In this document: piece by piece, positions 3,896 to 13,961 of the stretch
Numbering within the stretch: position 1 is the stretch's first letter
Layout of the letters: each line of letters begins with the position of its first letter
Origin: a virus
Direction: 5' to 3' (one strand)
IMG/VR virus record: IMGVR_UViG_3300030103_004637
Location: 1 to 31,853 of that record
DNA length: 31,853 bases
Position numbers and translations under genes: made by a program
Notes under the pieces: generated by a model
Told to the model about the DNA's origin: nothing
What the model saw: only the letters and a program-made list of their open reading frames with translations
Database searches by the model: none

Positions 3896-4065
3896 TTAAA
3901 AACGAAAAAAAAATTTAAAAAATTTTTTCAATAAGTATTTTAGGTGATGTTATCTCTAAAATCGACTATATACAAGTACATTAGGATCCCTACATATACA
4001 AAAGGGGGGATGGGGGTGCCAATAAACAAATGTAGTTTGAAACATGGTTTGGTACCTCTATCCGA

Positions 4066-4086
4066 TCTCGCCCCAGCGGGGCGAGA
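4066..4086. repeat. GC-rich hairpin, 9-bp stem
   Basis: TCTCGCCCC and GGGGCGAGA form a perfect 9-bp stem around the loop AGC. No T-tract follows on either strand, so it is not a canonical intrinsic terminator. It sits next to the G-rich repeat and stands out sharply from the surrounding AT-rich DNA. Confidence 0.8.
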
Positions 4087-4092
4087 AGCAGA

Positions 4093-4124
4093 GGGCGGTG
4101 GTGGGGGTGGGTGGGCCCGTAGGG
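4093..4124 (+). repeat. G-tract repeat, copy A (possible G-quadruplex)
   Basis: Five G-tracts occur at 4093-4095, 4103-4107, 4109-4111, 4113-4115 and 4122-4124, separated by loops of 1 to 7 bases, which satisfies the usual G3+N1-7 quadruplex pattern. The core at 4097-4118 recurs at 6380-6401 with a single T to C difference over 22 bases, and both copies run into GGGCCC and then an AGGC/GGGC plus CAAGC tail. Quadruplex formation is inferred; the repeat is directly visible. Confidence 0.8.
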
Positions 4125-4140
4125 CTCAAGCCACTATATC

Positions 4141-4182
4141 CAGTAGGTGTTGCATTTTTGCAACACAAGATGCAGTAGGTGT
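4141..4182. repeat. Hairpin between two CAGTAGGTGT direct repeats
   Basis: CAGTAGGTGT occurs at 4141-4150 and 4173-4182. Between and overlapping them, GTGTTGCA (4147-4154) and TGCAACAC (4159-4166) form a perfect 8-bp stem around TTTT. No T-tract follows. It could be a binding site, a structured leader element or a remnant of the nearby repeat family. Confidence 0.7.
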
Positions 4183-4346
4183 CCAGATTTCTAGGATTTC
4201 TATCTATAATATATTATCCCATAAAAACCCATTATAAAGCCCATACAGATACATCGGAGCATGAAGCGTTATAGATTGTTAAACTAAAATAATGCATTTT
4301 TTTTGATTATTTATCCCATAAATTGTGATAGATTTAATTATTAATT

Positions 4347-4745: not shown

Positions 4746-4840
4746 TGGAGGACTTAAATACAATTTGCATTGTGATCACTTCGGTGGTCACATTGCTTGT
4801 CGTTTGGGTTATTCTTGACGAACATTTCGGAGGTAAATAA
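4745..4840 (+). CDS. Small single-pass membrane peptide (31 aa)
   Basis: ATG at 4745 overlaps the preceding stop as TAATG, and the frame ends at TAA 4838-4840. The peptide is mostly one hydrophobic helix, ICIVITSVVTLLVVWVIL, followed by DEHFGGK. The Shine-Dalgarno GGAGG of the next gene lies inside its last codons (4829-4833), so translation of the two is probably linked. No family is recognised. Its reality rests on tight packing between two coding genes and the clear helix. Confidence 0.55.
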   Translation: MEDLNTICIVITSVVTLLVVWVILDEHFGGK

Positions 4841-4841
4841 C

Positions 4842-5771
4842 ATGAATGTATTCTCAGCATTTGACGGGATGTCTTGTGGTCGTATTGCATTAGATAAAGT
4901 AGGGCTGACCGTGGATAATTATTTTAGTTCCGAAATAAAAAAATACGCAATTGATATTGCAAATAAAAATTATCCTCAAGATAAAAAAAATAGATTAGGT
5001 GATATCACTACCATTAAAGGTAGTGATCTCCCTACAATAGATTTGTTTATAGGTGGTTCACCTTGCCAAGATTTTAGTGGTGCTAATAAAAATAGATTAG
5101 GTGTTGAAGGTTCTAAAAGTGGTTTATTTTATGAGTGGTTAAGATTAAAGAATGAAGTTAAACCAAAATATTTCTTATTAGAAAATGTGAGAATGAAATC
5201 GGAGCATGAAGAAATTATTTCTAGAGAATTAAATTGCAAGCCTATCAAAATTAATTCTATGCATTTTGCTCCACAACTAAGACATAGATTATATTGGACT
5301 AACATTCCTTTATATTATATTTACCCAAGGCCAAAACACTTAATTGAAGTTTTAGAAAATGGTTGGACGGAAAGAACACACGCAAGATGTTTGCTTGAGA
5401 GTGATAGTCGTCCACTATCAACACCAATTAAAATGTTTCATAGATATTATTCAACAGGATTTACAACTTTGATTTTTAAATCTCAAAAACATTTTGGAGA
5501 ATGTGTTTTTCATTATAATGAAAATTTTAAACACATGAACGCAAAACAAATAGATGAACATATTAAAAATAGTAATATCGATTTATCTATTTATGAAGGT
5601 GTTAGATATTTAACACCACAAGAAAGAGAAGATTGCCAAACAGTTCCAAGAGGATATACAAAAGGTTTGACCGAAAATCAGATTGCTTGTATACTTGGAG
5701 ACGGTTGGACAATAGATGTGATTGCTCACATCTTCAACGGACTAAAAGAAAGAGAGAAAGCAAATGACTAA
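4842..5771 (+). CDS. DNA cytosine-5 methyltransferase, DNMT3-like
   Basis: 309 aa. Transfers a methyl group from S-adenosylmethionine to cytosine C5. Motif I is FSAFDGMSCGRIALDKVG at the N-terminus; motif IV is GGSPCQDFSGA with the catalytic Cys; motif VI is ENV; the motif VIII-like segment is QLRHRLYW; the C-terminal motif X-like segment is LGDGWTIDVIAHIF. The GSPCQ context and short recognition region resemble phage and DNMT3-type enzymes more than restriction-modification enzymes. I start it at ATG 4842 because GGAGG lies 8 bases upstream and motif I begins at residue 3; an upstream TTG would add 15 unrelated residues. No restriction endonuclease lies beside it, so it may protect phage DNA or act on its regulation. 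It overlaps the next gene by 8 bases. Confidence 0.9.
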   Translation: MNVFSAFDGMSCGRIALDKVGLTVDNYFSSEIKKYAIDIANKNYPQDKKNRLGDITTIKGSDLPTIDLFIGGSPCQDFSGANKNRLGVEGSKSGLFYEWLRLKNEVKPKYFLLENVRMKSEHEEIISRELNCKPIKINSMHFAPQLRHRLYWTNIPLYYIYPRPKHLIEVLENGWTERTHARCLLESDSRPLSTPIKMFHRYYSTGFTTLIFKSQKHFGECVFHYNENFKHMNAKQIDEHIKNSNIDLSIYEGVRYLTPQEREDCQTVPRGYTKGLTENQIACILGDGWTIDVIAHIFNGLKEREKAND

Positions 5772-6170: not shown

Positions 6171-6202
6171 ATAAAAAGCAAGCGCCCGTTAGGGCGCTTG
6201 CT
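6171..6202 (-). terminator. Intrinsic terminator, minus strand (distal)
   Basis: AGCAAGCGCCC (6177-6187) and GGGCGCTTGCT (6192-6202) form a perfect 11-bp stem around GTTA. Read on the minus strand the stem is followed by TTTTTATTCTTATT, a good T-tract. It would stop transcripts coming leftward from the nuclease gene at 6503-6862 before they enter the opposing operon. On the plus strand the hairpin directly follows the last gene but lacks a T-tract. Confidence 0.8.
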
Positions 6203-6227
6203 GCATTCTGGATTTCAGATCAACAAG

Positions 6228-6239
6228 CCCAGATCTGGG
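6228..6239. repeat. 12-bp perfect palindrome CCCAGATCTGGG
   Basis: A perfect palindrome between the two minus-strand terminators in the convergent intergenic region 6169-6502. It could be a protein site or part of the repeat element; nothing decides between them. Confidence 0.6.
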
Positions 6240-6241
6240 TT

Positions 6242-6276
6242 AAAAAAAATAATAAATTCCGGTCCTGGAATTTATT
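6242..6276 (-). terminator. Intrinsic terminator, minus strand (proximal)
   Basis: AATAAATTCC (6251-6260) and GGAATTTATT (6267-6276) form a perfect 10-bp stem around GGTCCT. On the minus strand it is followed by ATTTTTTTT (6250-6242). The stem is AT-rich but perfect. With the hairpin at 6177-6202 it makes a tandem terminator downstream of the minus-strand nuclease gene. Confidence 0.7.
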
Positions 6277-6368
6277 GCTTAGGCACAGGCCACGAGCTGC
6301 AAGAGTTCGAGGCTGAAAAAAAAATAAAAAATAATCCACAAGCCACAAGCAGCAAGCTGCACGAACCA

Positions 6369-6401
6369 GGGAAACCGGGGGTGGTGGGGGCGGGTGGGCC
6401 C
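6369..6401 (+). repeat. G-tract repeat, copy B core (possible G-quadruplex)
   Basis: G-tracts at 6369-6371, 6377-6381, 6386-6390, 6392-6394 and 6396-6398 have loops of 1-5 bases. Positions 6380-6401 match 4097-4118 at 21 of 22 bases, in the same orientation. The pair brackets the three-gene methyltransferase operon as direct repeats about 2.3 kb apart. Confidence 0.8.
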
Positions 6402-6502
6402 AGAAGGCGCAAGCACCAGGAATCTTTTAGCCCTCCCTCCCAACCCTTACTATTATAACATATATTATGGGAAAGTAAAGTATAAAATGGGATAATATAA
6501 AA

Positions 6503-8183: not shown

Positions 8184-8391
8184 AAAAATAATAGATAAAT
8201 TCCGGGCTGCTAATGTGGCCCGGTATACCCTGGAAATTTTTGAAAATAACAGCAGCATTGAATCTATAACTTATAGGGTACAAGCCACAAGCAACAAGCC
8301 ACAAGCAACAAGCGATACTCACCCGGATTTACTACCCAATCATGGACCTGAGTATTATGCACCAAGGCGCAGGCGTAAAAGAGTGTTGTAA
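8173..8391 (+). CDS. Doubtful small ORF overlapping repeat element C
   Basis: 72 codons, starting 11 bases inside the preceding gene. The first half (MIDKKIIDKFRAANVARYTL) could be protein, but the second half translates the CAAGCCACAAGC repeats and an Arg-rich tail, and the equivalent segment at 6241-6420 is non-coding. It may be a short real gene that ran into the repeat, or a chance frame. No Shine-Dalgarno of note. Confidence 0.3.
   Translation: MIDKKIIDKFRAANVARYTLEIFENNSSIESITYRVQATSNKPQATSDTHPDLLPNHGPEYYAPRRRRKRVL
8181..8375 (+). repeat. Non-coding repeat element, copy C
   Basis: In order: an A-run with AATTCCGG (8198-8205), a hairpin CCGGGC/GCCCGG (8202-8207 and 8218-8223), CAAGCCACAAGCAACAAGC repeated in tandem (8281-8313), and AAGGCGCAGGCG (8364-8375). 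Order and spacing match copy B at 6241-6420, except that the G-tract block is missing. It sits immediately before TerS. Confidence 0.6.
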
Positions 8392-11103: not shown

Positions 11104-11975
11104 TCGTTACTCTCTTTCTGATTGGATGATTGATTGTCCGATGTAGTAGGGGATGTGAGGGATGAGGCTGTTTCCGAGGGACTTAAGTCGGTCCACCCTG
11201 TGGGGTATCCCATGAGCCACTCGACCCACGTTGGGTTCAACGTCCCACCACCCTTCTTCTCTTTCACTGCCATGGTCAAACCAACTTGTTTTCCCATTGC
11301 TATCCGTCTTTGTATTGCTGGGTCCGATAGGTTTCCCCGGTCCCTGTTGTCTGATGCGTTCGGAGTTGGCCACATCTTCACTGCTCCTGCTAACTTTCCC
11401 TTCTTGGCTATCTTCTCGTAGTTCGTATTCTCTCCTGTGTCTTTCCAATCTCTCGCTGCTGGAGTTGGCCATGATCTTCTCGTCACTGTGTTCATGAGAG
11501 TTTCTCCCCTTGTCACGTTCGTACTCGGAGGATAAGCTCCGATTTGATCCTTCCAATCTCTTGATGTTGGAGTTGGCCATGTCTGAATTGCCATTGTCAA
11601 AGGTGTTCCTCCCTGTGCGTACTTCTTCGTTCGATTGTTTGCTGAGTCTGTCGTTGGAGTTGGCCACAATCCAGACTCTTTCTCTTTTGTGGTTGGCACC
11701 GATGCTAGAAGCTGAAATACTAAACGTCCTTGCGGAGTAACCTTCACTCTCCAAGTCCGAGAGTACGGTGTCAAGACCGAGTTTAATGTGTCCACCAACG
11801 TTTTCTCCAATGACCCAAGTCGGTCGACACTCTTGGACAAGTCTAAAATACTCTGGCCAGAGATGTCTCGGATCTTGCTCACCTTTTTTGTTACCTGCAA
11901 CGGAGAAAGGTTGGCAAGGGTATCCTCCTGTGATGATGTCGATGTTATTAATTCCATTTGCTTTGAGTTTTTCAT
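11100..11975 (-). CDS. Overlapping WPTP-repeat ORF inside the methyltransferase gene
   Basis: 291 codons open on the same strand, starting on the second base of methyltransferase codons. From memory it resembles phage proteins, often labelled methylase-associated, with the same order: YSRTWRVKVTPQGRLVFQLL, then SGLWPTP, repeated units WPTPxxxD (W104, W133, W169, W202), then LNPTWVEWLMGYPTGWTDL. Each WPTP unit is the V/M-ANS DNA of the methyltransferase read one base later. Its stop overlaps the 10966 gene's ATG as ATGA. It is about 2.7 times longer than any other shadow frame I see here. The ATG at 11975 has no strong Shine-Dalgarno. It could be a true dual-coded gene or a by-product of the repeats. 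Confidence 0.5.
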   Translation of the reverse strand: MKNSKQMELITSTSSQEDTLANLSPLQVTKKVSKIRDISGQSILDLSKSVDRLGSLEKTLVDTLNSVLTPYSRTWRVKVTPQGRLVFQLLASVPTTKEKESGLWPTPTTDSANNRTKKYAQGGTPLTMAIQTWPTPTSRDWKDQIGAYPPSTNVTRGETLMNTVTRRSWPTPAARDWKDTGENTNYEKIAKKGKLAGAVKMWPTPNASDNRDRGNLSDPAIQRRIAMGKQVGLTMAVKEKKGGGTLNPTWVEWLMGYPTGWTDLSPSETASSLTSPTTSDNQSSNQKESNE

Positions 11976-12147
11976 ATGTAAGCTCCTTTATATCTCCATA
12001 AATGGGAACATTCTCCCAATGTTTTCTTAATACTTTTTGACAAAAGGGATCGTAGTCACAGAAAGCAACAGTTTCAAATTCTCCTGTTGCTTCTAATCCT
12101 AGACTAAACCCACCAATACCACTAAATAAATCTAAGTGTTGATACAT
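11107..12147 (-). CDS. DNA cytosine-5 methyltransferase with ANS-repeat recognition region
   Basis: 346 aa. Motif I DLFSGIGGFSLGLE (6-19), motif IV GGYPCQPFSVAG with catalytic C78, motif VI ENV (115-117), motif VIII IGANHKRERVWIVA (149-162), and C-terminal motifs IX-X GRVAHGIPHRVDRLKSLGNS. Between VIII and IX the target-recognition region is made of four units starting V/M-ANS at residues 161, 190, 226 and 259, hydrophilic and of low complexity. The local GC content is visibly higher than in neighbouring genes. It starts in a TAATG overlap with the 12147 gene. No cognate endonuclease is seen. A second frame over most of this gene is also open (next entry). It is unlike the first methyltransferase, so it is not a duplicate. 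Confidence 0.92.
   Translation of the reverse strand: MYQHLDLFSGIGGFSLGLEATGEFETVAFCDYDPFCQKVLRKHWENVPIYGDIKELTYEKLKANGINNIDIITGGYPCQPFSVAGNKKGEQDPRHLWPEYFRLVQECRPTWVIGENVGGHIKLGLDTVLSDLESEGYSARTFSISASSIGANHKRERVWIVANSNDRLSKQSNEEVRTGRNTFDNGNSDMANSNIKRLEGSNRSLSSEYERDKGRNSHEHSDEKIMANSSSERLERHRREYELREDSQEGKVSRSSEDVANSERIRQQGPGKPIGPSNTKTDSNGKTSWFDHGSEREEGWWDVEPNVGRVAHGIPHRVDRLKSLGNSLIPHIPYYIGQSIIQSERE
11362..11666. repeat. Four in-phase GGAGTTGGCCA repeats
   Basis: GGAGTTGGCCA (plus-strand reading) starts at 11362, 11461, 11569 and 11656. Intervals of 99, 108 and 87 bases are all multiples of three, so every copy keeps both reading frames in phase: V/M-ANS in the methyltransferase and WPTP in the overlapping ORF. 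Confidence 0.9.
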
Positions 12148-12951: not shown

Positions 12952-13203
12952 CTAATCTTCTAGTTCTACGTCTATTTCTAGTTCTTCTTCTTCTTGTTTA
13001 TTAAGTTTATCTATAATTCTTTTACTTTCTTTCTCTAATTCTTCCGGTTGATCTATAAATTGAAATAAAATTTTACCATTAATCATCTGTTCATATTGTG
13101 AATGACAATGAAAACACCTATAAATTAATTTATCTCTGATATCTTGTTTAACTAAGGGTGTATATTCAGAGCATGTGTGGCAAATTCCTAACACTACGAT
13201 CAT
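12952..13203 (-). CDS. Small zinc-ribbon protein (83 aa)
   Basis: ICHTCSEYTPLV and YRCFHCHSQYEQM give two CxxC pairs (C8/C11 and C30/C33) about 19 residues apart, a zinc-ribbon arrangement, followed by an acidic Glu-rich tail. It overlaps the transferase-like gene upstream by 4 bases (ATGA type), so the two proteins are likely made together. It could bind DNA, RNA or a protein partner. It is the last gene of the replication operon before the promoter at 12.86 kb. Confidence 0.72.
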   Translation of the reverse strand: MIVVLGICHTCSEYTPLVKQDIRDKLIYRCFHCHSQYEQMINGKILFQFIDQPEELEKESKRIIDKLNKQEEEELEIDVELED

Positions 13204-13961
13204 TTATCTTTGATATCATAAAAATAATCTCTTTGATATACATTTAAATCTTTAATGGTTTTTATGTTAGAATCATTATCACATAATGTATTATATATAG
13301 ATTTATTGTTTATCCATTCTTTGCCATTCCAAAATTCAAACCCTTTATATTTAGATTTGTATTTACTAGTTGTTTCATAACCATAAGACAAATAATAATT
13401 TTTACATTTGTTTTTAATAGACCAATCAATTTCATATAGTGTTGCATATGTACCTAATCCTAATTTTGGATTTTCGTAATCCCATGCAAACTGTCCTGAT
13501 AATACATGCTTGTTATCAAAAACTTTAAACTCTGTAAAAGCAACAGGAGTATCTTTGTAATAGTAAATAAAATATTTCCAATCTATATAATCTTTCTTTT
13601 CAAATACTTCACTGTCATTTTCAAAACCTTCTTCATAAAAGTTTCTATACTTAATATATTTTTTATATATTGTTGAAAGTAAATCATAATCAAAACTATT
13701 TAATATTTTAACTTTAATATCTTTTTTACGAAGAACATACTTTTGTTTTTTACTAAACTCTACTTTATCTAAAACTAATCTTGTGTTTCTAGCATTTATC
13801 CAAGTTAAGTTTTCTAATTCTGTATAATACCAAGATAAAGGAATCCATCCGTTTTCAAAAGCATAGTCATATTCGTTATCTTCAAACTCTGCTAGGGCTA
13901 GAGAGTAAACTAAATCGTAGTTCGTTAGCTTTCCTGTGATGTGGTCAAAAAATAATTTCAC
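13200..13961 (-). CDS. Aminoacyl-tRNA-protein transferase-like protein (Bpt/ATE family)
   Basis: 253 aa. The C-terminal GNAT-like half matches bacterial leucyl/arginyl-tRNA-protein transferases: LGLGTYATLYEIDWSIKNK, then YYLSYGYETTSKYKSKYKGF and WNGKEWI line up with family LGT..VLYQID, YLGYQI..CP.MNYK..F and .QRW. The middle (ARNTRLVLDKVEFSKKQKYV, TIYKKYIKYR) also fits in order. Family members attach an amino acid to protein N-termini, marking them for ClpS/ClpAP decay. The N-terminal Cys motif of the family (CxYL and CxxC) is absent; the aligned stretch WYYTELENLTWINARN has no Cys. The alignment is from memory. It overlaps both neighbours by 4 bases. Alternatives are a GNAT or FemX-like acyltransferase. 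Activity is unproven. Confidence 0.68.
   Translation of the reverse strand: MKLFFDHITGKLTNYDLVYSLALAEFEDNEYDYAFENGWIPLSWYYTELENLTWINARNTRLVLDKVEFSKKQKYVLRKKDIKVKILNSFDYDLLSTIYKKYIKYRNFYEEGFENDSEVFEKKDYIDWKYFIYYYKDTPVAFTEFKVFDNKHVLSGQFAWDYENPKLGLGTYATLYEIDWSIKNKCKNYYLSYGYETTSKYKSKYKGFEFWNGKEWINNKSIYNTLCDNDSNIKTIKDLNVYQRDYFYDIKDK

Follow-up and report, generated by a model that had tools for sequence, protein, structure and literature searches.

A cysteine-less ATE/Bpt-like protein of marine phages, encoded beside the phrog_3704 gene

ATE and Bpt enzymes put an amino acid on protein ends, marking these proteins for destruction. In yeast ATE1, a cluster of four cysteines has been reported to bind zinc (PMC10115844) or to hold an Fe-S cluster (PMC9884297); disrupting it lowers RNA binding, and a basic helix plays a role at the tRNA acceptor arm (PMC10115844). 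In the openly licensed literature that we searched, nothing was found on viral relatives of arginyl- or leucyl-transferases, and the word arginyl is absent from the report on HTVC023P-type phages (PMC9599517). Here, we describe a phage protein that, judged by its sequence, is a real but far-diverged relative of these enzymes and appears to represent a branch of the ATE/Bpt lineage that is specific to phages and without the cysteines, so far unreported for viruses in that literature.

The window is the whole IMG/VR virus record, 31,853 bases in length, with a GC content of 33% and no tRNA gene. The open reading frame of 253 codons that the first-pass annotation had placed at 13200-13961 exists; it lies on the minus strand and runs from a GTG start at 13961 to a stop codon at 13202-13200, and the plus strand across the same interval is full of stops (Table 1). 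The start codon shares bases with the TGA stop of the upstream gene, phrog_3704 (GTGA), and 4 bases at the 3' end are shared with the next gene. The three genes are arranged as in one operon; in other loci, the downstream gene of 83 aa shows no fixed link to the other two. Elsewhere in the window, a C5-cytosine DNA methylase gene (PF00145) was observed at 11107-12147 and a second, methylase-like by eye, at 4797-5771; neither is common to phage HTVC027P or 023Pt_psg01. Short direct repeats of the type ACAAGCCACAAGCAACAAGC occur between genes (6333-6370 and 8275-8326), and two GC-richer stretches, near 4000-4240 and near 6200-6460, seem atypical against the 33% GC of the genome.

Table 1. Coordinates of the ATE/Bpt-like gene, its segments and its neighbours in the window
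Feature	Position	Strand	Basis
ATE/Bpt-like gene	13200..13961	-	GTG start, 253 aa; profile matches
ATE_C-matching region, residues 97-210, GNAT-type core	13332..13673	-	Pfam match and predicted model
Lys/Arg-rich stretch, residues 66-85, candidate tRNA acceptor-arm contact	13707..13766	-	Conserved basic in alignment A3; analogy with ATE1
W54-xxx-R58-xx-R61, at the place of Bpt C-x2-C-x2-C and invariant Arg	13779..13802	-	Alignment
LGT motif, residues 169-171, G170 invariant in Bpt and phage proteins	13449..13457	-	Alignment
Y201-K202, invariant in Bpt and phage proteins	13356..13361	-	Alignment
Partner gene phrog_3704, 212 aa	13958..14596	-	Stop overlaps ATE-like start (GTGA)
83-aa gene, small Cys-rich protein, downstream of the ATE-like gene	12952..13203	-	4-base overlap

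The window protein matches Pfam ATE_C (PF04377) over residues 97-210 with 24.4 bits and E=4.7e-5 (26.1 bits in the whole-record search; curated cut-off 25), and the NCBIfam arginyltransferase model NF002342 over residues 61-218 with 41.2 bits and E=1.4e-10 (cut-off 205). ATE_C was found in 25 of 25 diverse phage relatives at E<=0.01, with several scores above the cut-off and a best E of 4.8e-10. Using a profile of the diverse alignment of 25 phage members (A3, identity down to 25%) against PDB sequences, we found ATE1 enzymes only at E<=1, namely those of yeast (2.7e-8), K. lactis (2.9e-7) and human (0.002). A single-sequence PDB search with the window protein gave nothing meaningful; the kinship is thus visible through profiles only. 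Moreover, the phage profile aligned with that of 25 bacterial Bpt (Alphaproteobacteria, Aeromonas and Acinetobacter, all taken from database records) over 158 columns, with a probability of 98 and E=2.6e-13 (hhalign). The likeness to Bpt and arginyltransferases, first drawn by eye, is therefore significant by ATE_C, NF002342 and hhalign alike, and the ATE_C profile search set beforehand as a check on it returned a significant match. Chance likeness of motifs was ruled out by these E-values and by the ATE_C match in every member.

No match to the ATE_N domain (PF04376) was obtained for any of the 25 phage members, and the NCBIfam arginyltransferase equivalog cut-offs (170-358 bits) were missed by the window protein (41 bits) as by its divergent relatives (25 bits or less). 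As it fails these tests and that of the cysteines described below, the protein is not filed as Bpt or ATE1; by sequence, it is better placed as a new variant within the ATE_C superfamily. PHROGs holds no entry matching it. No acetyltransferase Pfam family matched the window protein, nor did the A3 profile find an acetyltransferase among PDB sequences; weak matches to such families occurred in two or three divergent phage members only.

An AlphaFold2 model built with 33 family sequences (pLDDT 73.6, pTM 0.76; weak at residues 1-23, 44-50 and 108-123) predicts a GNAT fold of the ATE type. Foldseek ranks 1-29 were all ATE1, followed by L-PGS, A-PGS, MprF, L/F-transferase and FemX. When the model was compared by VIA-align, human ATE1 reached Z 15.6 (rmsd 3.4, 216 residues), KlAte1 about 13, MprF about 13 (rmsd 3.0-5.8), FemX about 11 and VipF, the best CoA-dependent GNAT by fold, 10.4; KlAte1 and MprF tie on Z, and human ATE1 alone stands apart. 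The outcome named beforehand as counter to the ATE/Bpt reading, a GNAT or FemX in first place, did not occur in this search with the predicted model, in which human ATE1 outranks FemX, MprF and plain GNATs. A plain GNAT or FemX reading is not preferred, since sequence profile and fold both put ATE1 first.

Residues G38, R61, G170, Y190, Y201, K202 and W216 are invariant in both Bpt and phage proteins, and the two motifs that had been picked out by eye, LGTYATLYEID and YYLSYGYE...KYKSKYKGF, hold four of them (G170, Y190, Y201 and K202). Kept in kind are Y102 (24 of 25 phage proteins) and the Lys/Arg-rich stretch at residues 66-85, which may contact the tRNA acceptor arm, as its analogy to a basic helix found in ATE1 and related enzymes of transfer would suggest. 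The absence of the cysteine motif, also claimed by the first-pass annotation, extends to the whole sample: the four Cys columns, invariant in 25 of 25 Bpt, are lost in all 25 phage proteins, where they correspond to a gap, a mixture of K, N, D and gap, W (25/25) and A, S, V or L. Other Bpt-invariant residues (H of RH, D of LTD and Y of VYSF) are replaced as well, and A34, W54, R58, W160, Y162, E177, Y195, F208, W211, G213 and D230 are invariant in the phage proteins only. Loss of the cysteines is not confined to phages, as a Bernardetia protein is also without them.

The family counts more than 110 distinct viral loci; over 80 close relatives (60-97% identity) came from scans of viral contigs, which then reached distant ones down to 25%. 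The dN/dS ratio between close pairs of ATE-like genes is 0.07-0.27, which shows that the gene is under purifying selection. In a tree, all phage proteins split from the sampled Bpt with a support of 100/100 and on a long branch. No relative was detected in named phage genomes (50,697 phage records searched by tblastn, using the window protein plus three divergent relatives), and a pattern-based scan of GTDB species genomes gave no tblastn relative in bacteria. Recent capture of a host Bpt was rejected on the grounds of the absence of a GTDB relative by that scan, the absence of a Pelagibacteraceae Bpt and the separate long-branch clade. Records of arginyltransferases from 'Acinetobacter phage' were set aside as probably host DNA.

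The gene directly upstream, phrog_3704, has relatives in T4-like cyanophages and pelagiphages. Among 117 distinct loci, counting only those found via the ATE-like protein, it is directly adjacent and on the same strand in 99 (85 upstream, 14 downstream); at one further locus it lies no more than 300 nt away, 10 loci are truncated within 200 nt upstream, and in seven the flanking sequence covered contains no phrog_3704. For six such loci it is absent from the whole contig, some of these contigs being short. Conversely, 64 phrog_3704 loci are without the ATE-like gene. As each gene is also found alone, neither strictly needs the other.

The pair was found in at least four genome settings: with polA, helicase and primase (window, L002), in the terminase-portal region (L009, L017, L042), between nrdA and nrdB (L407) and beside a SET-domain gene (L420). 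In the third of these (L407, 963-5860), its insertion separates the large-subunit gene of ribonucleotide reductase from the small-subunit gene. HTVC027P and 023Pt_psg01 match 20 of the 34 window genes, largely in the same order, and at the cassette spot they carry only a phrog_3704 of 38-39% identity, without the ATE-like gene; cassette loci in other settings have a phrog_3704 up to 94-99% identical to that of the window. The simplest reading of these comparisons is that a resident phrog_3704 gene was replaced by the two-gene cassette. Cross-family multigene transfer has been reported in HTVC023P-type phages (PMC9599517).

In GenBank and PHROGs, phrog_3704 is labelled PurM (phosphoribosylaminoimidazole synthetase) or ferredoxin, and Pfam matches neither; these names, which concern the window gene and L095 7251-7910, L096 8172-8819 and L308 4001-4645, look wrong from the sequence. 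A purM gene has been reported in 45% of HTVC023P-type phage genomes (PMC9599517). The phrog_3704 gene is present in hundreds of phage contigs and is nearly frozen in sequence (dN/dS about 0.02-0.03). Its product has no informative Pfam match and no match in a PDB sequence search. The predicted model is all-beta, with best fold matches to Tudor/SH3-like proteins at Z 6.5 or less, too weak to use, and no Foldseek E below 0.001. A link to defence was not apparent, as PADLOC gave no match.

This locus seems to attract further enzymes of protein modification. In a Synechococcus phage (L306 3642-4013), phrog_3704 is overlapped by a SET-domain protein, a candidate lysine methyltransferase; in L420 (3625-4017), a SET-domain protein overlaps the ATE-like gene. 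Just upstream of the ATE-like gene in L422 (2912-3979) and L410 (3069-4004) lies a protein of 311-355 aa that is amidinotransferase-like by eye (NVWxxWDxLKxVM), without a Pfam or NCBIfam match.

The window TerL is 70% identical to that of HTVC027P, a phage of Pelagibacter HTCC1062; its PolA is 67% identical to that of 023Pt_psg01 and 56% to that of HTVC027P, and its 1293-aa protein is covered to at least 80% only in these two phages. SAR11 is thus the likely host of this marine phage. We looked at the N-degron pathway in these bacteria: ATE_C exceeds the cut-off in 0 of 147 Pelagibacteraceae genomes, many of them partial, as compared with 114 of 190 Alphaproteobacteria at large, and ClpS, which is patchy in SAR11, was found in 26 of the 147; the ClpP control was found in 134, some of these matches being weak. 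ATE_C, ClpS and Aat are all missing from twelve named SAR11 genomes. No ClpS was found in 20 phage records, many of them partial, of which 19 carry the ATE-like gene or its close neighbour. Since ClpS is scarce in the likely host family and was not found in the phage records, a ClpS-directed tag would often have no reader, if the host is indeed SAR11. These counts give no support to the earlier proposal of a phage that redirects N-degron proteolysis; the other one, in which the fold now serves a different acyl transfer, would fit better. A peptide deformylase, also an enzyme of protein N-termini, is encoded by the related phage 023Pt_psg01 (L424 2991-3512).

Homology, the GNAT/ATE-like predicted fold, cysteine loss, purifying selection and tight phrog_3704 linkage lead us to propose, tentatively and with slightly less than even confidence, that the protein is a cysteine-less aminoacyl-tRNA-dependent transferase of the ATE/Bpt lineage working with the phrog_3704 product. 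It would take an amino acid from host aminoacyl-tRNA, using its basic segment and the conserved G170/Y190/Y201/K202 core, and transfer it either to phrog_3704 itself or to an acceptor presented by phrog_3704, and what results would not mainly be a ClpS degron. The two genes would be translationally coupled and may move between marine phages as a cassette. Binding of tRNA is suggested by analogy with ATE1, and the co-transfer of the pair could reflect linkage without a joint reaction. The replacement of Bpt-invariant H, D and Y outside the Cys cluster and the weak parts of the model count against the proposal, as do the loci in which one of the two genes occurs without the other. Its more specific form, a mobile two-gene system in which the ATE-derived enzyme aminoacylates phrog_3704 or a presented target, unrelated to N-degrons and in hosts largely without that pathway, is possible and on balance unlikely.

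We consider it improbable that the protein is a transferase of the same fold with another donor, such as acetyl-CoA, or a non-protein acceptor (small molecule, lipid or nucleic acid). The GNAT fold is common to CoA enzymes and the lipid-aminoacylating MprF/L-PGS, and the weak acetyltransferase matches in two or three divergent members point the same way, but the sequence profiles point to ATE/Bpt in particular, enzymes known to use aminoacyl-tRNA as donor, and plain CoA GNATs score lower in fold. A canonical N-degron enzyme, which would deliver selected host or phage proteins to ClpS/ClpAP for degradation by attaching Leu or Arg to their acidic N-termini, is what the closest characterised relatives and the ATE/Bpt kinship would predict, and ClpS does occur in 26 of the 147 genomes of a host family that is only inferred; this is nevertheless a rather poor prospect given a likely host family with no ATE_C over the cut-off (0/147) and mostly no ClpS, twelve named SAR11 genomes without ClpS or Aat, 20 phage records without ClpS, and the loss of the Cys cluster and some Bpt-invariant residues. 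These same replacements would suit a non-catalytic protein that binds tRNA or N-termini, for example a translation inhibitor or a phrog_3704 chaperone; we hold this to be very doubtful, as every member retains the core residues that Bpt and phage proteins share without exception, and purifying selection acts over the protein.

Near-constant adjacency to phrog_3704, together with cysteine loss, suggests that a tagging chemistry was reused for a phage purpose. If the pair performs an aminoacyl-tRNA-dependent modification, phrog_3704 would gain a testable role and viruses would be shown to use tRNA-dependent tagging outside proteolysis.

Among known systems, L/F-transferase (Aat), FemX and MprF/L-PGS belong to the same aminoacyl-tRNA-using GNAT superfamily; they are lower-ranking fold matches, with a lower Foldseek E-value rank than ATE1, and are missing from the phage sequence-profile results. 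The Bernardetia sp. protein WP_338791038, encoded on a plasmid (L104 160-1221), is an ATE-like domain fused to DUF952 that is also without the Bpt Cys cluster and has W39 and E177 in common with the phage proteins. Unlike them, it has a strong ATE_C match (2.4e-18) and a weak ATE_N match (7.6e-4), and it groups with Bpt in the tree, on a long branch that makes its placement unsure; no viral relatives of it were found. With Bpt (PRK01305; PF04376 and PF04377), the phage proteins share the ATE_C domain, the seven invariant residues and the basic stretch before the core, whereas they are without an ATE_N match and the four cysteines, have the Bpt-invariant H, D and Y replaced, score far under the NCBIfam equivalog cut-offs and end in an additional C-terminal tail that contains the motif E(W/F)W-x-G-x-x-W. 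Compared with eukaryotic ATE1, the phage protein is without the CX2C...CC cluster, much shorter and about 17-18% identical in structural alignment, yet among solved structures ATE1 is its best match, with 2.7e-8 in the profile search and, for the human enzyme, Z 15.6 in the fold comparison.
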